A stretch of 42,939 bases of DNA, from positions 1-42,939 of the forward strand of contig JABWBD010000010.1 in the NCBI GenBank assembly GCA_013360685.1, given 5' to 3'. The position numbers and the translations under genes are program-made. The DNA comes from Pirellulales bacterium. Its GTDB lineage: Bacteria; Planctomycetota; Planctomycetia; Pirellulales; Thermoguttaceae. The number at the start of each line of letters is the position of its first letter. The stretch's first letter is position 1. Positions 21,461 to 31,512 of the stretch are shown one piece after another. Under the pieces are notes generated by a model. The model saw nothing but the letters and a program-made list of their open reading frames with translations, ran no database searches and had not been told where the DNA came from.

Positions 21461-21913
21461 TCATTCCGCCTCGGGATCGTCTCGGCGTGCGGAAGATCGC
21501 TTCCGCCGCCGGTGGACTTCAAAGGCGGCGAGGTCGGCAATCGTGGTCTTCTTGAGGAAGCGGGTCAGTTGCGAGCGCGAGGTCCTACAGAACGCATGCG
21601 CGGGACACGCCCGATTCCCGCTGCACACCGCATTGCCCAGCATGCACCGCGGTTGAAGGACTTCGTCGTCCAAAGCCACGCAGAGTTCGTAAAGGGTGAT
21701 GCTCCGGGCCGGGCGCGCCAGGACGACGCCTCCGCCCACGCCGCGCTGGGTCGAAACCAAGTTCTTACGTGCCAAGACGTTGATGATCTTTGCCAGGTAC
21801 GCTCCGGGAATCGAGCACTCCCTGGCGACGGCCTTGACCAACACCGGCTCTCCCTTCCGGCCGGCGATGTAGCCCAACGCGCTGGCTGCGTAGGAGGATG
21901 CCTGGCTGATCAT
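21461..21913 (-). CDS. Rrf2-family transcriptional regulator with Fe-S cysteines
   Basis: The frame extends to 21979, but those residues are encoded by the palindromic element at 21937-22020. The ATG at 21913 starts the normal Rrf2 N-terminus (MISQASSYAASALGYIA), giving 150 residues. A winged helix spans about 1-70, with the GGVVLARP wing near 61. Cysteines 90, 97 and 103 match the spacing of cluster ligands in NsrR/IscR-type members, with a further C109. Such proteins sense NO, oxygen or Fe-S status. Its position divergent from ccoNO, with a dyad in between, suggests it controls the cbb3 operon. The C-terminal tail is basic, then acidic. Confidence 0.88.
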   Translation of the reverse strand: MISQASSYAASALGYIAGRKGEPVLVKAVARECSIPGAYLAKIINVLARKNLVSTQRGVGGGVVLARPARSITLYELCVALDDEVLQPRCMLGNAVCSGNRACPAHAFCRTSRSQLTRFLKKTTIADLAAFEVHRRRKRSSARRDDPEAE

Positions 21914-21936
21914 CGGAGCGGTTCCAGTTGAGACGC

Positions 21937-22020
21937 TAACAAAACGGGGACGGGCACCCTCGCGTCGCCCGGTTTTCAAGCCGGCTTCGAACTGGGCCGG
22001 GAGCCAGTCATTGCCTTGTT
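21937..22020 (-). repeat. approximately 84 bp palindromic element, copy A
   Basis: The outer arms start AACAAAACGGGGAC (21938-21951) and end GCCTTGTT (22013-22020); 15 of 22 arm positions pair. The core contains the 10 bp palindrome AAGCCGGCTT (21978-21987). It matches copy B (29002-29086) in length, in the GCGAGGGTGCC-GTCCCCGTTTTGTT arm and in CCGGGAGCC. Both copies have the same orientation relative to the gene downstream (here rrf2, minus strand). It resembles REP/MITE-like elements; no transposase is in the window. Confidence 0.65.
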
Positions 22021-22059
22021 CGGCGAGCGCCAGGAACGGGTTTGCCGGTGAGCATGTAG

Positions 22060-22080
22060 CCGAGGCCCGCCGAGCCTCGG
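22060..22080. repeat. 7 bp hairpin repeat
   Basis: CCGAGGC (22060-22066), 7-base loop, GCCTCGG (22074-22080): a perfect stem in the rrf2-ccoNO spacer, likely a dispersed intergenic palindrome. Confidence 0.45.
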
Positions 22081-22253
22081 ATTCCAGCGTCTCGGAGTGG
22101 CGCTGCTACGGGAAAGTCGTTCTCTGCCGCCGGTCGTGGCGCCTGTCAGGCGTCAGTATGGCAATTAAGGAGCCGGGCGTCAAGAATTCCGCCGCTCGCC
22201 TGACCGCAAAGCCCTTGACGGACTCGACGCGCCGGGTGAAAATCGACGCTGAT

Positions 22254-22285
22254 TTGACGATTAGATGATCTGTTGGTCATCTATT
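22254..22285 (+). promoter_or_regulatory. candidate operator/promoter for ccoNO
   Basis: TAGATGA (22262-22268), 8-base spacer, TCATCTA (22277-22283) is a perfect 7 bp dyad. The AGATG...CATCT core resembles NsrR-type Rrf2 sites (spacing 10 here, 11 in the classical site as I recall it). TTGACG at 22254-22259 could be a -35; a -10 is not clear (TCTATT at 22280-22285 would need a 20 bp spacer). It ends 48 bp before the ccoNO start and faces the divergent rrf2 gene. Confidence 0.5.
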
Positions 22286-22331
22286 CCTGGCCGTTTGAGC
22301 CGGCGCAGCCCACGGCAGATGGAGGTCGGAA

Positions 22332-24707
22332 GTGACGCCCGAAACCCTGGCAATCCAAGCGCGCGAGGCTCCGCACCCGGGCGCGGGCGGGTCTGCCCCG
22401 CTGGAGCGGTTTGTCTACAACGACGCGATCGTGCGAGCCTTTCTCCTGGCGACCGTCCTGTGGGGCGTCGTCGCTTTTCTGGTGGGACTGCTGGTCGCCC
22501 TGCAGTTGGCGTTGCCGGTCGTGAATCTCGGTTTCTCGTTCACGTCCTTCGGCCGGATGCGGCCTCTGCACACCAACGCGGCCATTTTCGCCTTTGCGGG
22601 CAATGCCGTGTTCGCGGCCATTTATCATTCGACACAGCGGCTCGCGAAGGCCCGCCTGTTCAGCGACTTCTTGGGCCAGGTCCACTTCTGGGGCTGGCAG
22701 GCGATCATCGTCGGGGCCGCCGTCACGTTGCCCCTGGGGGTGACGACGGGCAAGGAATACGCGGAGTTGGAATGGCCGATCGACATCGCCATTGCGCTGG
22801 TTTGGGTGGTTTTTGCGATCAACTTTTTCGGCACCCTCGTCCGCCGCCGCGAGCGGCACATGTACGTGAGCCTGTGGTTCTACATCGCCACCATCATCAC
22901 GATCGCCGTGCTCCACATCTTCAACAGCCTGGAATTGCCCATGGAGGCGATGAAGAGCTACCCCGTATATGCCGGCGTGCAGGACGCTTTTATGCAGTGG
23001 TGGTACGGGCACAACGCCGTGGGTTTCATGCTTACCACGCCGTTCCTGGGGCTGATGTACTATTATCTTCCCAAGGCGGCCGAACGGCCGGTGTATTCCT
23101 ACCGGCTGAGCATCGTCCACTTCTGGGCCCTGGTCTTTATTTACATCTGGGCCGGACCGCATCATCTCCACTACACTGCCCTGCCGGAATGGGCCTCGAC
23201 GCTGGGGATGCTCTTTTCGATCATGTTATGGATGCCGTCGTGGGGAGGCATGCTCAACGGCCTGCTCACGCTCCGCGGGGCCTGGAACAAGGTGACTGCC
23301 GAGCCGATCCTGAAGTTCTTCGTCGTCGGCGTCACCTTCTACGGCATGTCGACCTTCGAGGGGCCGCTGCTCTCCGTCAAGGAGGTCAATGCCCTGGCGC
23401 ACTACACCGATTGGATCATCGCCCACGTCCACGCCGGGGCGCTGGGCTGGGTCGGATTGATGACCTTCGGCATGCTCTACTGGCTCATGCCGCGGATGTT
23501 CCAGGTGCCGCTGTGGAGCAAGAAGCTGGCCGACGCCCACTTCTGGATCGCCACGATCGGCATCCTCCTTTATATCGTGCCGATCTACGTCGCCGGATTG
23601 ACCCAGGGGCTGATGTGGCGGGCGATCGACAGCACGGGGAACCTCTCCTATCCCGACTTCGTGGAGACCGTGTTGGCCCTGATGCCGATGTACTGGCTGC
23701 GGCTCGTGGGCGGCACGTTGTACTTGGCCGGCGCGGTGCTCTGCGGCGTGAACTGTTTGAAGACGATGGCCGCCCGGCCGGCGCGCTATGAAGAGCCGGT
23801 CCACGAGGCCCCGGCGCTGGCTCGCGATTACGTGGAGCCTCCCAAGCCCCGGTCACGGCTGAAAGACGCCCCGGTGCTCGATCTGGCGCACCGGCTGGAT
23901 GTGTGGCAACAGGGCTGGTGGCACCGCCGCTGGGAGCGCAGGCCCCTGCGGTTCACCGTCTGGGTGACCATTGCCGTGATCGTCGCGTCGTTGTTCGAGA
24001 TCATCCCGCTCTTCCTGATCCGCTCGAACGTTCCGACGATCGCCTCGGTCAAGCCCTACACGCCGCTGGAACTGCTCGGGCGCGACGTTTACCTGAGCGA
24101 GGGCTGTTACAACTGTCACTCGCAAATGGTCCGCCCCATACTCGCCGAGACGAAACGCTACGGCGAATACTCGAAGCCCGGCGAATCGGTCTTCGACCAT
24201 CCTTTCCAGTGGGGCTCGCGGCGGATCGGCCCCGACCTGGCGCGCGAGGGGGGCAAGCAGTCGGCGTTGTGGCACGTGCTTCATTTCCAGGACCCGCGGC
24301 AGGTGACGCAAGGGTCGGTCATGCCCGCGTATCCCTGGCTGCTGGAGCGTCAGATCGACTTCAACGTGATCGAGCCGCGGATGGCGGCCATGCAGCGGTT
24401 GGGCGTGAGCTATCGCGACGACGAGATCCGGGACGCCGCGGAATCGGCCCGCCGGCAGGCGAGCGTCGTTGCCGCCAACGTCGTGGCCGACCAGGGTCCC
24501 GCGGGCTTGGAGAACAAGGAGGTCATCGCCCTGGTCGCATACCTCGACCGGCTGGGAAAAGACCTTTTTGAAACACCGCCGAGCGCGGAATCGCCAACGG
24601 CATCACAGACCGCGGGCAACGAACCGGCCGGCCGGGAGCGGCCGCCGACACAGAATGTCAAGAAAGCGGAAACAACTACGGCTGCCATCGGCGCGGCGGC
24701 GCCCTAA
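22332..24707 (+). CDS. ccoNO: fused cbb3-type cytochrome c oxidase subunits I and II (CcoN-CcoO)
   Basis: The 791-residue membrane protein joins CcoN (about residues 1-500) to CcoO (about 540-755). CcoN shows the haem/copper histidines: H80 in RPLHTNA, WWYGHNAVGF near 225, GPHHLHY near 279 and IAHVHAGALGW near 362, across about 12 helices. A charged linker leads to the CcoO membrane anchor (about 538-556) and one haem c site, CYNCH, at 591-595, with a MPAYPWL Met-ligand region near 660. The enzyme reduces oxygen to water with high affinity and pumps protons. The tail after 755 is Ala/Pro/Thr-rich. GTG start with GGAGG 6 bases upstream. CcoQ and CcoP follow. Confidence 0.95.
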   Translation: MTPETLAIQAREAPHPGAGGSAPLERFVYNDAIVRAFLLATVLWGVVAFLVGLLVALQLALPVVNLGFSFTSFGRMRPLHTNAAIFAFAGNAVFAAIYHSTQRLAKARLFSDFLGQVHFWGWQAIIVGAAVTLPLGVTTGKEYAELEWPIDIAIALVWVVFAINFFGTLVRRRERHMYVSLWFYIATIITIAVLHIFNSLELPMEAMKSYPVYAGVQDAFMQWWYGHNAVGFMLTTPFLGLMYYYLPKAAERPVYSYRLSIVHFWALVFIYIWAGPHHLHYTALPEWASTLGMLFSIMLWMPSWGGMLNGLLTLRGAWNKVTAEPILKFFVVGVTFYGMSTFEGPLLSVKEVNALAHYTDWIIAHVHAGALGWVGLMTFGMLYWLMPRMFQVPLWSKKLADAHFWIATIGILLYIVPIYVAGLTQGLMWRAIDSTGNLSYPDFVETVLALMPMYWLRLVGGTLYLAGAVLCGVNCLKTMAARPARYEEPVHEAPALARDYVEPPKPRSRLKDAPVLDLAHRLDVWQQGWWHRRWERRPLRFTVWVTIAVIVASLFEIIPLFLIRSNVPTIASVKPYTPLELLGRDVYLSEGCYNCHSQMVRPILAETKRYGEYSKPGESVFDHPFQWGSRRIGPDLAREGGKQSALWHVLHFQDPRQVTQGSVMPAYPWLLERQIDFNVIEPRMAAMQRLGVSYRDDEIRDAAESARRQASVVAANVVADQGPAGLENKEVIALVAYLDRLGKDLFETPPSAESPTASQTAGNEPAGRERPPTQNVKKAETTTAAIGAAAP

Positions 24708-24718
24708 GGAGAACGTGC

Positions 24719-24916
24719 GTGGGCCTGAAAGGACTCATGAGCGGAATGGGCATGAGCAGCTTCACCATCGCCGCGATGGTGATCGCCCTGGCCACGTTCG
24801 TTGCCGTCGTGATCTGGACGTTCCGCCGGCCGCGCGACGAGATGGAGGCCGACTCCCGGCTCTGGATGGACGACGAGGACCGGGACCTGTCGCTGGCAGT
24901 GGAAAGACGCATTTGA
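24719..24916 (+). CDS. ccoQ: CcoQ/FixQ-like small oxidase subunit
   Basis: The 65-residue protein has one membrane helix (about residues 14-35, SFTIAAMVIALATFVAVVIW) followed by an acidic tail (RPRDEMEADSR), the plan of CcoQ/FixQ, which stabilises the assembled cbb3 complex. The assignment rests on size, topology and its place between ccoNO and ccoP. It starts at GTG 24719 with AAGGAG upstream, 11 bp after ccoNO. Confidence 0.75.
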   Translation: MGLKGLMSGMGMSSFTIAAMVIALATFVAVVIWTFRRPRDEMEADSRLWMDDEDRDLSLAVERRI

Positions 24917-24928
24917 GAGGGACACCCC

Positions 24929-25522
24929 ATGGCCGACGACCGATTGCTCGATCATGTGTACGACGGCATCCAGGAATACGACAATCCATGTCCCCGCTGG
25001 TGGTACTTGGTCCTCTGGGCGACCGTTCTTTTCAGTCCGCTCTATTTCCTCTTTTTTCACGTTGGCAGTTCCGGATGGACGTTGAGCCAGTCCTATGACC
25101 AGGAGGTGGCCGACAATCTCAATCTCCGTTTCGCCGAGATCGGCGAATTGACGGCGGACGAACCGACCTTGTTGAAGTACATGCACGAGCCCGATTGGCT
25201 GGCCATTGGCACGGGGGTGTATAGCACGCACTGCAAGTCCTGCCACGCAGCGGACGGCAGCGGCCTGGTCGGTCCCAACCTCACCGACGATGTCTACAAG
25301 AACGTCCGCTCTCTGGCGGATATCGCCAAAATCGTTGAGGACGGCGCTGCCGGAGGAAGCATGCCGGCCTGGCGTAATCGACTTCACCCCAACGAAATCG
25401 TGCTGGTATCGGCCTATGTGGCCGGTTTGCGGGGCAAGAATCTTCCGGGCCCTCGCGGCGCGGAGGGAAAAGCGGCCCCGCCCTGGCCCAAGGGGAAGCC
25501 CGACGGGGTCGACCTGCAATGA
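24929..25522 (+). CDS. ccoP: CcoP-type subunit III with a single haem c
   Basis: The 197-residue protein carries the FixP N-terminal motif (YDGIQEYDNPCPRWW, residues 11-25), one membrane helix (about 26-46) and one cytochrome c domain with CKSCH at 102-106 and a likely Met ligand in GGSMPAW near 150. Classical CcoP has two haem c domains and about 300 residues, so this is a one-haem form. It would pass electrons from a soluble donor to CcoO. It overlaps ccoG by 4 bp (ATGA), indicating translational coupling. Confidence 0.92.
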   Translation: MADDRLLDHVYDGIQEYDNPCPRWWYLVLWATVLFSPLYFLFFHVGSSGWTLSQSYDQEVADNLNLRFAEIGELTADEPTLLKYMHEPDWLAIGTGVYSTHCKSCHAADGSGLVGPNLTDDVYKNVRSLADIAKIVEDGAAGGSMPAWRNRLHPNEIVLVSAYVAGLRGKNLPGPRGAEGKAAPPWPKGKPDGVDLQ

Positions 25523-26955
25523 CCCGCGAATCCCTGCTGTGCGAGCCCCGAGTTCTCTCCACGCTCAACGCCAACGGTTCGCGCCGCTGGCTTCACCCTC
25601 GGCCATCGCGCGGCCGGCTCTATCGGGCGCGGCGGATCCTGGCCTACGGACTGATCGCGGTCTTCACGCTGGTGCCGTACCTCTCGATCGGCAGCAAGCC
25701 GGCCGTCTTGCTGGACATCTCCCGGCGCGAGTTCACGCTCCTGGGGTTCACGTTCCTGCCGACCGACACGGTGTTGCTGGCGCTCCTGCTGGTGACGCTG
25801 ATCCTGGGTATTTGCCTGGCGACCGCCATCCTGGGACGCGTCTGGTGTGGTTGGATGTGTCCCCAGACGGTCTACATGGAGTTCGTCTACCGGCCGTTGG
25901 AGCGGCTGTTCGATGGCCCACCCGGGCCGCGCCAGGCACCCGGCAAACGGTCCACGCCGGGCCGCATCCTGCTGAAGTACGCGATTTACGTGGCAGTCTC
26001 GGCATACCTCGCCCACACGTTTCTTGCGTACTTCGTCGGTGTGGAGACGCTGGCCCAGTGGGTCGAGCGGTCGCCGCTGGAGCATCCGATCTCGTTCCTG
26101 GTGATGGCGGGCGTCACCGGCTTGATGATGTTCGACTTCAGCTACTTCCGCGAGCAAACGTGCATCGTGGCTTGTCCCTACGGCCGGTTCCAGTCGGTCA
26201 TGTTGGACCGCGACTCGCTGATCGTCAGCTACGATCCCAAGCGGGGCGAGCCTCGCGGACGCGCTGGGCGCGGGTCTCCAGACCCCGCCCTCCGTGGCCA
26301 TTGCATCGACTGCGGCCAGTGCACCGACACCTGTCCCACCGGGATTGACATCCGCGACGGCTTGCAGCTCGAATGCATCGCCTGCGCGCAGTGCATCGAC
26401 GCCTGCGACGCAGTGATGGACCGCCGGGGCAAGCCTCGCGGCCTGATCCGCATGAGCTCGCAGTCGCGAATCGAGGACGCCGGCGGCCGATGGCTGCGCC
26501 CGCGGCTCGTCTTGTACGCGGCGGTGATGCTGGCGCTGCTGACCGTCCTGGGCACGGCGCTGGTCCGCAAGCAATCGGCCGACGTCACCCTGCTGCGTGG
26601 CCGGGGCGCGCCGTTCCACGAACTGGCGCCCGGCGAAATCACCAACCAGATCGGCGTGAAGATTACCAACCGCAGCGGCGCAGATGCCGCCTACCGGATC
26701 GAGGCAGCCGCCCCGGCGTCGGTCAGGGTGGTTGCCGAGGAAAACCCCGTGCTGCTGAAGGCAGGCCAGTCGCGCTCCGTCGCCGCCATGATCACCATCG
26801 GCCGCGGCGAGTTCCAGGGCGGCCGGTGCGATGTCACCCTGCGGATCTCGGACGGTGACACTTTTTCGCAAGAGCTCGACTACCGTCTGCTCGGCCCACA
26901 GAACGCCCTGGCACCGGCGGCAAGCGATGGTCGTGAGGAGCCGGACCGTGGCTAA
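25519..26955 (+). CDS. ccoG: CcoG/RdxA-type cbb3 oxidase accessory protein
   Basis: The 478-residue protein has several helices (about residues 42-62, 75-105, 155-175, 193-210), WCGWMCPQT near 112 and an EQTCIVACPYGRFQS block near 213. A ferredoxin-like pair of [4Fe-4S] motifs follows: CIDCGQCTDTCP (about 257-268) and CIACAQCIDACD (about 285-296). An Ig-like C-terminal domain (FixG_C) starts near 360 after another helix (about 328-350). CcoG reduces or handles copper during CuB-centre assembly of cbb3 oxidase. It overlaps ccoP at its start and ccoH at its end. Confidence 0.93.
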   Translation: MTRESLLCEPRVLSTLNANGSRRWLHPRPSRGRLYRARRILAYGLIAVFTLVPYLSIGSKPAVLLDISRREFTLLGFTFLPTDTVLLALLLVTLILGICLATAILGRVWCGWMCPQTVYMEFVYRPLERLFDGPPGPRQAPGKRSTPGRILLKYAIYVAVSAYLAHTFLAYFVGVETLAQWVERSPLEHPISFLVMAGVTGLMMFDFSYFREQTCIVACPYGRFQSVMLDRDSLIVSYDPKRGEPRGRAGRGSPDPALRGHCIDCGQCTDTCPTGIDIRDGLQLECIACAQCIDACDAVMDRRGKPRGLIRMSSQSRIEDAGGRWLRPRLVLYAAVMLALLTVLGTALVRKQSADVTLLRGRGAPFHELAPGEITNQIGVKITNRSGADAAYRIEAAAPASVRVVAEENPVLLKAGQSRSVAAMITIGRGEFQGGRCDVTLRISDGDTFSQELDYRLLGPQNALAPAASDGREEPDRG

Positions 26956-27463
26956 CGAAATGCCGACCGTCCCAATCGTCGTGGCCGGCCCGTGCCGGAA
27001 CCTGCTCTGGCCTGGCATGATCGTTGTCTTCCTGGGCGTGCATATCCTGGCCATGCTGGTGACGGTCTGGATCGCCACGCGCGACCGCTCGTTTGCCATC
27101 GAGCCGGATTACTATCAAAAGGGACTGCACTGGGACACGATTGCCCGGCAACAGCGGACCAACGCAATGCTCGGCTGGCGCGTGGAACTCGAGATCGGCA
27201 ACGACGCAGGCGTGTTGGGCCGGCGGACGCTCGCCTGCAAACTCGTCGATAAGTCGGGTGCGCCGATCGAGGGCGCCGCAATCAACCTGGTTGCCTTTGC
27301 CCACGCCCGTGGAAATGAGCGGACCTCGGTGGTCTTGGAAGATTGCGGCGAGGGTGTTTACGTGACCGCGTGTCGCTTTGCACGCAAGGGGCTCTGGGAG
27401 TTCCGCCTGGTTGCGCGCCGCGGGCGAGAGACGTTTACGTATACGGAGCAAATTCGGATCTAG
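26948..27463 (+). CDS. ccoH: FixH/CcoH family protein
   Basis: Starting at GTG 26948 (TGAGGAG about 6 bases upstream) the product has 171 residues and overlaps ccoG by 8 bp. An ATG four codons later is an alternative. One membrane helix (about residues 21-42, MIVVFLGVHILAMLVTVWIA) is followed by YYQKGLHWD (about 56-64), the FixH signature, then a periplasmic beta-rich domain. FixH/CcoH helps late assembly or stability of the cbb3 complex. It ends 10 bp before the convergent hicB gene. Confidence 0.88.
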   Translation: MANEMPTVPIVVAGPCRNLLWPGMIVVFLGVHILAMLVTVWIATRDRSFAIEPDYYQKGLHWDTIARQQRTNAMLGWRVELEIGNDAGVLGRRTLACKLVDKSGAPIEGAAINLVAFAHARGNERTSVVLEDCGEGVYVTACRFARKGLWEFRLVARRGRETFTYTEQIRI

Positions 27464-27473
27464 CTCGGACTGT

Positions 27474-27734
27474 TCACATCACAGCCCCGTGGGTTGCACA
27501 CTCCTCGTTCTGGATAGTAATCCTTGGGCTTGGGTTGGCAGGTGGAACGGAAAGCCCTTGTTCTTTGAGAAGAGCGACGTGCTCTTCCATTCCCCACCTT
27601 GCCTGATAGATGCAGTCCTCTACGGAATGACCGATTCCTGAGAAACCTTCCAGCTCAGGGGAGTAGAAGCCGAAATAGTCAGGCTCTGCGGTAGCCTCGA
27701 TTACCAGGGAGTAGGGCAAATTGATCACATTCAA
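27474..27734 (-). CDS. hicB: HicB-like antitoxin
   Basis: The 86-residue protein has the HicB-type partial RNase H-like fold (EPDYFGFYSPELEGFSGIG, then EDCIYQARWGMEEHV). It ends soon after this core and shows no clear ribbon-helix-helix or HTH DNA-binding tail. HicB neutralises HicA by direct binding. It follows hicA with a 4 bp overlap (27731-27734). The order toxin then antitoxin is usual for hicAB. Confidence 0.85.
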   Translation of the reverse strand: MNVINLPYSLVIEATAEPDYFGFYSPELEGFSGIGHSVEDCIYQARWGMEEHVALLKEQGLSVPPANPSPRITIQNEECATHGAVM

Positions 27735-27931
27735 TCTCCTTGAGTATGCTTAATCCCCGCGGCCTTCAGAATGGAGTGACAGGTCCCTGAAGGGACTTCT
27801 TTGGAACCGTGGTAGTCCACACGAATCAATCTGTTCCATCCCGGTTTCCCGTAATAACGTATGGATCCCTTTTCCTTGACAATTCTGAAGCCGTGCTCTT
27901 CCAGCATGCGAACCAACTCTGAGAATTTCAC
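27731..27931 (-). CDS. hicA: HicA-family mRNA interferase toxin, catalytic His replaced
   Basis: The 66-residue protein matches the dsRBD-like HicA fold: MKFSELVRMLEEHGFRIV at the start and KEVPSGTCHSILKAAGI near the end. HicA toxins usually have a catalytic His in a GSH segment after the first strand; here it reads G22-S23-I24-R25. H41 in VDYHGSKEV is kept. Either this is a known His-less subfamily or the toxin is weak or inactive. GTG start at 27931 with GGAG 8 bases upstream. A promoter with an overlapping dyad lies 50-80 bp upstream. Confidence 0.82.
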   Translation of the reverse strand: MKFSELVRMLEEHGFRIVKEKGSIRYYGKPGWNRLIRVDYHGSKEVPSGTCHSILKAAGIKHTQGD

Positions 27932-28217: not shown

Positions 28218-28994
28218 ATGGAATTATTAACCGCTGTGATCGTTGCCAGCCTGCTCGGCAGCCTGCACTGCGCCGGCATGTGCGGGCCGCTGGTGGCGTT
28301 CGCCGTCGGCGACGGCCGGCGCCAGTCGTGGACAAACCGAATGGGGTTGCAGGCCGCGTACCACGGCGGCCGGCTCGTGACTTACGCGGCGGTCGGAGGG
28401 ATTGCGGGCTTGGCCGGCGCAGCCGTGGACTTGGGGGCGGCGCGGCTGGGAATCCACCGCGCGGCCAGCATCGTGGCCGTGGCCCTGATGATCGGCGTGG
28501 GTGCGGTCGCCGTCTTGCGCTATGGCGCAGTGCGATTGCCCCAGTGGCGGCTGCCGGGGCGGGTCCGCAGCCTGATCGCGGGCGGCCAGCGCGCTGCGCT
28601 GGCGATGCGACCGGTGCCGCGGTCGCTGACCGTCGGCTTACTGACTCCGCTTCTACCCTGTGGCTGGCTCTACTTGTTCGCGCTGGTAGCCGCCGGCGCC
28701 GGAAACGCCGTCCTGGGCATGGCGGTGATGACCGCCTTCTGGTTGGGCACGCTGCCCGTTCTGCTGTCGGTCGGCGTCGGCGTCCAACTCCTTGCAGGTA
28801 CGATCGGGCGTCGCATGCCCTTGGCTACCGCGGTCGCGATCGTGCTTTTGGCCATCACGACCATTTTTCTGCGAGCGAGGCTTCCACTGGCGGCCTCCGA
28901 GCCGCCGGCAACAAGAAGCACGACTGACTCGCTTCGGCAAGTGGAGGATCTCCGCGATGCCGTCCCTCCCTGCTGCCGAAATCATGGCTCCTGA
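28218..28994 (+). CDS. TauE/SafE-like (DsbD_2/UreH-type) membrane protein
   Basis: The 258-residue protein has about six hydrophobic segments and the motif LHCAGMCGPLV (residues 16-26), typical of the UreH/TauE-SafE-like branch that accompanies cbb3 oxidase and copper ATPase genes. PLLPCGWLY (about 142-150) is the second characteristic Cys-containing motif. The paired CxxxC/Cys motifs suggest metal or thiol transfer across the membrane. The last 30 residues are polar and poorly conserved. By context it probably helps supply copper for CuB assembly; this is inference. It is followed by palindromic element copy B and ccoI. Confidence 0.8.
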   Translation: MELLTAVIVASLLGSLHCAGMCGPLVAFAVGDGRRQSWTNRMGLQAAYHGGRLVTYAAVGGIAGLAGAAVDLGAARLGIHRAASIVAVALMIGVGAVAVLRYGAVRLPQWRLPGRVRSLIAGGQRAALAMRPVPRSLTVGLLTPLLPCGWLYLFALVAAGAGNAVLGMAVMTAFWLGTLPVLLSVGVGVQLLAGTIGRRMPLATAVAIVLLAITTIFLRARLPLAASEPPATRSTTDSLRQVEDLRDAVPPCCRNHGS

Positions 28995-29001
28995 AAGTCC
29001 C

Positions 29002-29086
29002 TAACAAAACGGGGATGGGCTCCCGGTCATTGTGGAGGCGGTTGTGGAACAAAGACAACGCGAGGGTGCCTGTCCCCGTTTTGTTT
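29002..29086 (+). repeat. approximately 85 bp palindromic element, copy B, spanning the ccoI start
   Basis: Arms 29003-29024 and 29064-29085 pair over 22 positions with one mismatch if two G-U pairs are allowed; the outer 13 bp (AACAAAACGGGGA) are perfect. The 39-base loop holds GGAGG (29034-29038) and the GTG start of ccoI (29044). It shares length, arm sequence and orientation with copy A before rrf2. Confidence 0.75.
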
Positions 29087-31512
29087 GTGCCCATTGCGGC
29101 CTGCCTGTGCCGGCCGGGCTAATCGATCCTTCGCAGCCGGCACAGTTCTGCTGCCAAGGCTGCCGGGCGGTTTACGAGATGATCCGCGGTTGCGGGCTGG
29201 ACCGTTTCTATCGGCTCCGCGACGCGGTGGAAACGTCCGGCATCCCGGCCCGCACGACCCACCGCAAGTACAGCGAGTTCGACGACGCGGTATTCCGCGA
29301 CCTCTACTGCCAAGCCCTCGCCGACGGTACACAGTCGGTCGAGCTCTATCTGGAGGGAGTCCACTGCGCCGCGTGCGTGTGGCTCATCGAAAAGCTTCCC
29401 GGGGTCCTGCCGGGAGTGATCGAGTCGCGGCTGGATCTCCGCCGGGCGCTGGTCCACATCCGGTGGAATCCGTCGCAGGTCGGACTGGCCCAGATCGCGC
29501 GGACGCTCGACTCGCTGGGCTATCCGCCGCACCCGGCCAAAGACGCGCGCCGGCGCGAGCTCCGCCGGCAGGAGGACCGGCGTTTCCTGATCCGTATCGG
29601 CGTGGCGGCCGCGTGCACGGGCAACGTGATGACGTTGGCCTTCGCCCTGTACGGCGGTGTGTTTACCGGCATCGAAGCGCAGTACGCCCAATTGTTTCGC
29701 TGGGCGAGCATGGCCATCGGGATGATCGCCCTGGTATGGCCGGGAAGCCTGTTTTTCCGCGGCGCTTGGGCGGCGATTCGGACCCGCACCGCCCATCTTG
29801 ACGTACCGATTGCCCTGGGCCTGCTGGCGGGCGGAGCTGCGGGCATTCTCAACGTCGTCCGCGGCCGGGGCGAGATCTACTTCGACTCGCTCACGATGCT
29901 GGTCCTCTTGTTGCTCGCCGGCCGCTGGCTGCAACGCCGCCAGCACTGCTGGGCCAACGACGCCGTGGAACTCCTCTTCTCGCTCACGCCCACCTCCGCT
30001 CGGCGAATCGAGGGCGATCGCGTGGTCAACGTGCCTCTGGAAGCCCTGCAGCCGGACGAAGTGGTCGAGATCCTTGCCGGCGACAGCGTCCCCGCCGACG
30101 GCACGGTCCTGGAGGGCCGTTCGAGCGTTGACCAGGCGCTCTTGACCGGCGAGTCCCGGCCGGTCCCGGCCGTACCCGGCGATCGCGTCTACGCTGGCAC
30201 CCTCAACGGCGCCGCGCGGCTCCTCGTCCGAGTCGAAACCGTCGGCGAGCAGACCCGCGCGGGCAGGCTGATGCAGCTCGTCGAACAGCACAGTCGCAGC
30301 CGGGCGCCGATCGTGCAGTTTGCCGACCGCGTGGCCGGACGGTTTGTCGTGATCGTGCTGGCCTTGGCGGCGGTCACGTTCGGCGCGTGGCTGTGGTGGG
30401 ATGCGGCGCGCGCGGTGGACAACGCCGTAGCCTTGCTGATCGTCACCTGCCCTTGTGCGCTGGGCCTCGCCACGCCCTTGGCAATGACGATCGCCTTGGG
30501 CCGGGCGGCCAAACGGCATATCCTGATCAAAGGCGGCGAGACCCTGGAACTCCTCAGCCGAAGCGGCACGATGTTTCTGGACAAGACGGGCACGATCACT
30601 GCCGGCCAAATATCGGTGGTCTCGTGGACTGGCGACCGGGCCGCTGGGCCGCTGGTGGCCGCACTGGAACGGCATTCGGCCCACGGAATCGCCCAGGCCC
30701 TGATCGCCGCCGTCGAAAGCCAGGCCGCGCGTAATTGTCCCGGAGCGGAAAGCCTGGCCGCGACCGACGTCCGGCAGACTGCCGGCGGCGGAATTGCCGG
30801 CACGGTTGCCGGGCGGCGCGTGATCGTCGGTTCTCCCAAGTTTGTCCTGGGCTGCGGGGCGACGGTCGATGAGGCATTGTCGGCCGCACAGCAGCATGCG
30901 GTATCTTCCGGTTGGACTCCTGTCTTGGCGGCGGTCGACGGCCGCTGTGTCGCCGTAGTCGCATTGGGCGATCCGATCCGCGGCGATGCCGGCCAAGCGA
31001 TCGGCCAGCTGCGCAATCTTGGATGGCGGCTGCGGATCCTTTCGGGCGACCACCCGCAGGCAGTTGCGGCGATTGCCGGCGCGCTCGAGATCGACGCGGC
31101 CGACGCGTTTGGGGGCGTTCCGCCGGAGGAAAAGGTGCTCCACGTGCGCCAGGCCCGCGCACAAGGGCCGGTGGTAATGATCGGCGACGGCGTGAACGAC
31201 GCGGCCGCCCTTTCCGCGGCCGAGGTGGGCATTGCGGTCCACGGTGGGGCCGAGGCGAGCCTGGCGGCGGCCCACGTCTGCCTGGACCGCCCGGGGCTGA
31301 CGCCCATGGTCGAGTTGGTCCAAGCCGCGCGCAATACGCTGCGTGCGATCCGCCGCTGCCTGGCCGCGTCGCTCTGCTATAATGCAGTGGCCGCTTCGTT
31401 GGCCATGTCCGGCCTGATCAGTCCTTTGCTGGCGGCGGTCCTGATGCCGATCAGTTCCTTTACAATGCTCGCCCTGGCCTACAGCGCACGCACGTTTGGG
31501 GATGACCCATGA
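29044..31512 (+). CDS. ccoI: CcoI/FixI-type copper-exporting P1B-ATPase
   Basis: I chose GTG 29044 because GGAGG lies 5 bases upstream; GTG 29032 is also open. The product has 822 residues. Order: Cys-rich N-terminal domain (CAHC, then CCQGC near 38), HMA domain with CAAC near 111, eight predicted helices, actuator TGES (about 366), membrane CPC (about 476-478 in TCPCALG), phosphorylation DKTGT (about 516), and [10 protein letters not shown] (about 715). The HP motif reads SAHGIA instead of SEHPLA-like. CcoI delivers copper for cbb3 CuB. The first 14 residues are encoded by the palindromic element. It overlaps ccoS by 4 bp. Confidence 0.93.

Follow-up and report, generated by a model that had tools for sequence, protein, structure and literature searches.

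The perfect inverted repeat TAGATGA-TCTGTTGG-TCATCTA in the spacer of a divergent rrf2/ccoNO gene pair is best read as the core of an operator for the adjacent Rrf2-family protein, which would regulate its own gene and serve as an Fe-S switch, probably a repressing one, for the cbb3 oxidase operon. We put the probability of this reading at about three in four. A conserved element, in a two-copy layout, is tied to this gene pair in 21 planctomycete genomes, and the Fe-S-type ligands of the regulator are invariant; because the element is conserved together with its regulator and these ligands are kept, a local switch is the best reading. Local control of ccoNO by the adjacent Rrf2 protein is thus well supported by comparison of sequences, and both the planctomycete pairing and its operator appear to be new in the open-access literature searched, where no description of either was found. 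The window, that is, the whole stretch of DNA analysed, comprises 42,939 nucleotides, and the genes concerned are as follows.

21461-21913, minus strand: rrf2, Rrf2-family regulator with C90-X6-C97-X5-C103-PA-H106 (PF02082)
22332-24707, plus strand: ccoNO fusion, cbb3 oxidase subunits I and II, with a GTG start after GGAGGT
24719-24916, plus strand: small membrane ORF in the ccoQ position, recognized by position and one hydrophobic segment only
24929-25522, plus strand: ccoP (PF14715 FixP_N, PF13442)
25519-26955, plus strand: ccoG (TIGR02745, 416 bits against 316.7)
26831-27463, plus strand: ccoH (FixH; PF05751), whose true start is probably further in
28218-28994, plus strand: DsbD_2-type membrane protein of the cco cluster (PF13386)
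29032-31512, plus strand: ccoI-type copper P-type ATPase (PF12156, PF00122; TIGR01511 over cut-off)

The ccoNO product scored 1215 bits with the fused-protein model NCBIfam NF011053 (cut-off 1080), 663.6 bits with the ccoN model (583) and 226.3 bits with the ccoO model (200.7). The neighbours of rrf2 are ccoNO and CorA, and no isc or suf genes adjoin it. A HicA/HicB-like pair (27474-27931) separates ccoH from the DsbD_2 gene, on the strand opposite to the cco cluster; it consists of a HicA toxin gene (27731-27931, minus strand; PF07927, 50.4 bits) and a HicB-like partner ORF without a Pfam match (27474-27734, minus strand).

The rrf2 product reached 93.8 bits against a Pfam PF02082 gathering score of 30, and its predicted fold is that of an ordinary winged-helix Rrf2 protein (pLDDT 89.9; Z of 13-16 to CymR, IscR, RsrR and NsrR). 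Numbering from the ATG at 21913 puts the cysteines at C90, C97 and C103, where a preliminary description of this DNA had placed them, and together with H106 they are invariant among the 21 orthologues. In the PDB alignment, H106 falls on H107 of IscR, which is a cluster ligand (PMC3899308, PMC5411485). To judge from these residues, C90, C97, C103 and H106 probably carry an Fe-S cluster, and as a set they resemble the ligands of IscR. At position 8, 20 of the 21 orthologues have Tyr and one has Asn, and column 33 is mostly Cys, with Ser, Thr, Ala or Gly in the others. Position 41, corresponding to Glu43 of IscR, is Ala in 19 orthologues and Ser in two. In IscR, the E43A exchange leaves an apo-protein that binds type 1 sites (PMC3899308). 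By analogy, the natural Ala suggests that loss of the cluster may not abolish binding here, and that switching could depend on the redox state, in the manner of RsrR (PMC5015018).

The preliminary description had located a perfect TAGATGA-N8-TCATCTA dyad within 22254-22285, 48 bp before ccoNO, with an Rrf2 gene on one side and ccoNO on the other. All of this holds: the repeat, with arms of 7 bp and a gap of 8, occupies 22262-22283, its end is 48 bp from the GTG start at 22332, and both flanking genes were identified by profile matches. When the 417-bp spacer is shuffled with its dinucleotides preserved, 33% of the shuffles contain a perfect dyad with 7-bp arms and a gap of 0-12 (P ~0.33), and 3.4% contain the extended form, with a gap of 8 and 9 of 10 arm positions matched. 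The fixed dyad pattern with up to two mismatches is expected 0.02 times in the window, a rarity that holds post hoc only. Since the dyad as a single sequence is no better than chance in the spacer, its reality rests on conservation in relatives.

The comparison set consists of the spacers of 21 planctomycete genomes with a divergent rrf2/ccoNO pair. Phylogenetic footprinting of such spacers, as the preliminary description had suggested, was run, and the element proved to be conserved across all 21, so that the lack of conservation which that description had named as a refutation did not occur. Among the best 80 ccoNO loci of the genome collection, the nearest (L041, identical with L157; MAG Planctomycetaceae PLM2.Bin2), at 72% identity, has an orthologous divergent Rrf2 gene and an element with perfect 9-bp arms, and its 10+10 bp core is identical to that of the window. 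The two aligned spacers have TAGATGATCT-N4-GTCATCTATT in common but differ in the four bases at its middle and in those immediately outside the element. The pair and the element are also present in a third genome (L158), where all is kept except for the left arm, which is weakened. A second lineage, around L042 (ErkenSummer_bin-5518), contributed 18 more usable spacers with orthologous Rrf2 genes; ccoNO gave a tblastn match in 17 of these, and L195, which is cut short, was included on its reading frame. L013 and L015 were left out of the spacer evidence.

The consensus of the 21 spacers is GAnTAnnnGA-N8-TCnnnTAnTC, a palindrome of 28-30 bp, and from the comparison of these spacers the dyad is the core of this conserved element. 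Outside the window's lineage the element is degenerate. A palindromic motif search without any preset returned GA.TA..TGA..T..A..TCA..TA.TC with a score of 488, against 233 and 238 for shuffled spacers. Refinement with several sites allowed gave 40 sites with a summed score of 796. Under the same refinement, none of 30 dinucleotide-shuffled sets exceeded 23 sites or a sum of 253, a comparison that is partly circular because the consensus obtained from the real spacers was the starting point for the shuffled sets too. The independent checks are the 488-score search, a leave-one-out test and a motif built from ccoNO-side sites only. With the leave-one-out PWM, the top place of the whole 2-3.4 kb locus falls inside the rrf2-ccoNO spacer in 21 of 21 cases. 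The regulator very probably binds this 28-30 bp element.

In the window the element occurs twice, and each copy accompanies one promoter. All promoters and start sites given here are consensus predictions.

22258-22287, unstranded: candidate ccoNO-side operator, 30-bp CGATTAGATGATCTGTTGGTCATCTATTCC, leave-one-out PWM score 28.8, the best of the locus
22215-22243, plus strand: predicted ccoNO promoter TTGACG-17-GAAAAT, by consensus, also in L157 and L158
22161-22190, unstranded: weak rrf2-side copy of the element, GCAATTAAGGAGCCGGGCGTCAAGAATTCC, leave-one-out score 8.3
22155-22183, minus strand: predicted rrf2 promoter TTGACG-17-CATACT with TG before the -10, a prediction only

The TTGACG box adjoining the dyad (22253-22258), to which the preliminary description had pointed, is not conserved in relatives. 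Another TTGACG, at 22215, is the one that the two closest loci retain, along with a 17-bp spacer and a -10, so that three loci have the same -35, the same spacing and GAAAAT, CAGAAT or GAAAAT as the -10. The strong copy is centred at about +22 from the predicted ccoNO start in the window and at +23 in L157 and L158. The rrf2-side copy of the window is weak (P 0.024 against shuffles, with the motif from ccoNO-side sites only), and its position relative to the predicted rrf2 promoter, -28, recurs in L157 and L158. Two copies, one per promoter, are found in most or nearly all of the 21 spacers; relative to the predicted starts, most rrf2-side centres fall within -20 to -32, and those on the ccoNO side within -29 to +23. 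The half-site includes GAC and can mimic a -35, and for this reason the motif was relearned from the ccoNO-side sites downstream of the predicted start. This motif is largely free of promoter hexamers, and it placed the rrf2-side site best in 18 of 19 spacers, with the -35 overlap of some spacers controlled only partly. The spacer of the window is about 180 bp longer than those of L041 and L158. The whole of this extra length falls in the interval from rrf2 to its predicted promoter (21914-22160), and the predicted rrf2 leader is unusually long (~235 nt).

The proposed switch would work as follows. A dimer of the regulator would bind both copies, the strong one just downstream of the ccoNO start and the other on the rrf2 promoter; both promoters would then be blocked, and the level of the regulator itself would stay low and self-limiting. 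A change in the Fe-S cluster, most likely of its redox state as oxygen falls (as in RsrR), or else cluster loss, would release the DNA and turn the oxidase on. Binding itself, repression rather than activation, the type of cluster and the signal are what we infer. For the signal, redox or O2 is the most likely, a first guess made because the target is a high-affinity oxidase, and NO or iron would be possible. Oxidants or low iron would free an IscR-type holo-repressor from the DNA, a poorer match for a low-oxygen oxidase, so that the redox-release step is a physiological argument and not evidence. The centres of the element lie at usual repressor positions and were for that reason counted for repression. 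It is unlikely that the regulator is instead an activator that uses the element to bring in RNA polymerase at ccoNO, in the manner of IscR at certain type 2 sites. Some Rrf2 proteins do activate, and several second-lineage spacers have the ccoNO-side centre near -20 to -29. However, the strong site in the window's lineage is at +22/+23, downstream of the predicted start, and many other spacers have the centre at +5 to +17, where activation would likewise be unusual.

An NsrR-type operator, at which NO would destroy a 4Fe-4S cluster and so release ccoNO, had been suggested by half-sites of the form AGATG...CATCT, which are alike by eye, and by the Fe-S-type cysteines of the regulator. We regard this as quite unlikely, and the NsrR type of site and regulator was rejected on operator consensus, model score and cluster ligand. 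The published operator, gATGyAT-N5-ATrCATc (PMC1274295), fits the spacer with 5 mismatches of 14 at best. The NsrR, IscR and RirA family models of NCBIfam were all missed by a wide margin, at 34.2 against 182 bits for NsrR, 56.3 against 207.55 bits for the IscR equivalog and 48.3 against 193 bits for RirA. Although the Rrf2 fold and three cysteines are common to both proteins, NsrR has another operator, another target and Asp8 as the fourth ligand of its cluster (PMC5411485), where the regulator here has Tyr8 in 20 of 21 orthologues. A different set of ligands might nevertheless sense NO. Of the local redox- or NO-responsive switch that the preliminary description proposed, the local switch stands, through the conserved operator and the invariant ligands, and the NsrR type is not supported.

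Lying downstream of the predicted start, the dyad would be transcribed and could then work as a hairpin of the mRNA leader instead of a DNA operator. This is very improbable, as the element is also found at the rrf2 promoter, upstream of the predicted start, and part of the second lineage has it upstream of the ccoNO start, in both cases outside the transcript; Rfam returned no family match, and an RNA element was rejected on this ground. A chance dyad without function, to which the P of ~0.33 for the dyad alone would be favourable, is rejected as scarcely credible because footprint and motif are conserved in 21 spacers with strong controls.

Among known systems, the regulator has an RsrR-like layout together with IscR-like ligands and an IscR-like half-site core, and by the tests made it is a member of neither group. 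The ligands C92, C98, C104 and H107 of IscR, a Cys3-His set, correspond to C90, C97, C103 and H106, but the first Cys loop is X5 in IscR and X6 here. The core TA-N3-GA of the IscR type 1 half-site, ATASYYGACT (PMC3899308), is common to the element, whereas the type 1 centre is N9 and the centre here, GA-N8-TC, is one base shorter. The full type 1 operator, ATASYYGACTRWWWYAGTCRRSTAT, was rejected for the spacer, its best place having 8 mismatches of 25 and lying away from the dyad. The adjacent target also differs, being an oxidase and not isc or suf. RirA resembles the regulator in having the Rrf2 fold, three cysteines and the role, here a probable one, of an operator-bound repressor, but it is a global regulator and the one here is local. 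The RirA operator is TGA-N9-TCA.

RsrR, a redox-sensing 2Fe-2S Rrf2 protein of Streptomyces venezuelae, is the best PDB sequence match, and the YLAK stretch of its recognition helix is common to the regulator. Outside the Cys motif, RsrR uses Glu8 and His33 as ligands; here these positions hold Tyr8 and mostly Cys33. The RsrR operator is of the 11-3-11 type, with odd spacing, in contrast to the even GA-N8-TC, and RsrR binds at hundreds of places where here one target is seen. The likeness, two operators in a spacer with a divergent target, is one of layout only. RsrR represses its divergent neighbour from two full sites in the shared spacer and is likely autoregulated (PMC5015018). CtaR of Acidithiobacillus ferrooxidans, a predicted Rrf2 regulator of oxidase genes, resembles the present case, as compared by description, in that an Rrf2 gene lies in an oxidase cluster (PMC2754497). 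In A. ferrooxidans it is linked to aa3 oxidase biogenesis genes with no operator described, and its authors mention CtaR near cbb3 genes in T. denitrificans, with data not shown (PMC2754497).

The own genome was searched for further sites by patterns with mismatches. In this assembly (8.0 Mb, 77% complete), no second full-element site was found within two mismatches, and the core pattern with up to two mismatches gave 8 matches against 5 in the control, near the control level. With the full element matched once and the core near control, a wider regulon in the own genome was rejected. Since no second site was found there, the switch looks dedicated to ccoNO, and other targets may be unseen in a genome of this completeness. 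Other genomes have a few extra sites. In one of them, a strong extra element (L233 ~1500, G549:C173:6924; score 21.3) lies directly upstream of a gene that is DUF1338-like by eye, which is possibly a second target in that genome. Three GAGTAGATGACCCATCCGTCGGGTAGTT-like near-copies on contigs C404, C444 and C505 of G399 match the element with two mismatches, and they could represent additional sites or a small family of repeats.

Control of high-affinity cbb3 oxidases is usually ascribed to FNR/FixK-type regulators. No FNR/FixK box was found in the rrf2-ccoNO spacer, the best place having 3 mismatches of 10, and the one Crp/Fnr-type protein found in the 77% complete assembly is without an FNR-type cysteine cluster. 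A tentative extension, to which we give somewhat less than even odds, is that an undescribed planctomycete Rrf2 subfamily serves as a dedicated O2/redox sensor for cbb3, with its own even-spaced operator class on both promoters, and does the job of FNR/FixK; regulator, operators and oxidase may then travel as a cassette. The idea of a cassette comes from the distribution of the oxidase, since the own genome alone has a full ccoNO among 61 genomes of the family searched, though the contig is correctly binned. A mis-binned contig was rejected as the cause of this patchiness, as the Ffh of the contig is 89% identical to that of a same-genus genome, while its identity to Ffh of the genomes with the nearest ccoNO is 65-66%. 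The same-genus genome G001, which is 99% complete, has no full ccoNO match, and gain or loss of the cco cluster is patchy in the family (G001-G060). If true, a dedicated Fe-S Rrf2 switch, kept across planctomycete lineages, would account for low-oxygen gene control in bacteria in which such control has received little study, and a predicted operator class with a centre one base shorter than that of IscR type 1 would inform how Rrf2 proteins choose their DNA.

The pairing of Rrf2 and ccoNO recurs. In the 868 kb around the best 80 ccoNO loci, all eight Rrf2 genes lie directly upstream of ccoNO and divergent from it, and at least three sequence types of Rrf2 occur beside ccoNO: the window subfamily, the Phycisphaerales CPFGGGxCG type and a CPL...LCPLH type. 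As the pairing is repeated with several types, Rrf2 has become linked to cbb3 oxidase several times. The Phycisphaerales loci L063, L066, L071 and L086 have the other type (CPFGGGxCGxGxxCAxH) divergent from ccoNO, and their spacers have in common TCGTGAATTC/TTGATTT-like dyads, unlike the element of the window. Three relatives from the same order (L014, L015, L016) carry an upstream Rrf2 gene that is co-directional with ccoNO; their cysteine motifs differ, and the L016 protein seems to be without the usual CxxH. A protein search for Rrf2 relatives in the order gave a best match that is only 40% identical and not at ccoNO. A related Rrf2 gene (C-X6-C-X5-C-PAH; L159, G441:C137) stands in a row with genes for an RnfC-like and a small membrane protein, an arrangement hinting that relatives of the subfamily also serve other redox complexes.
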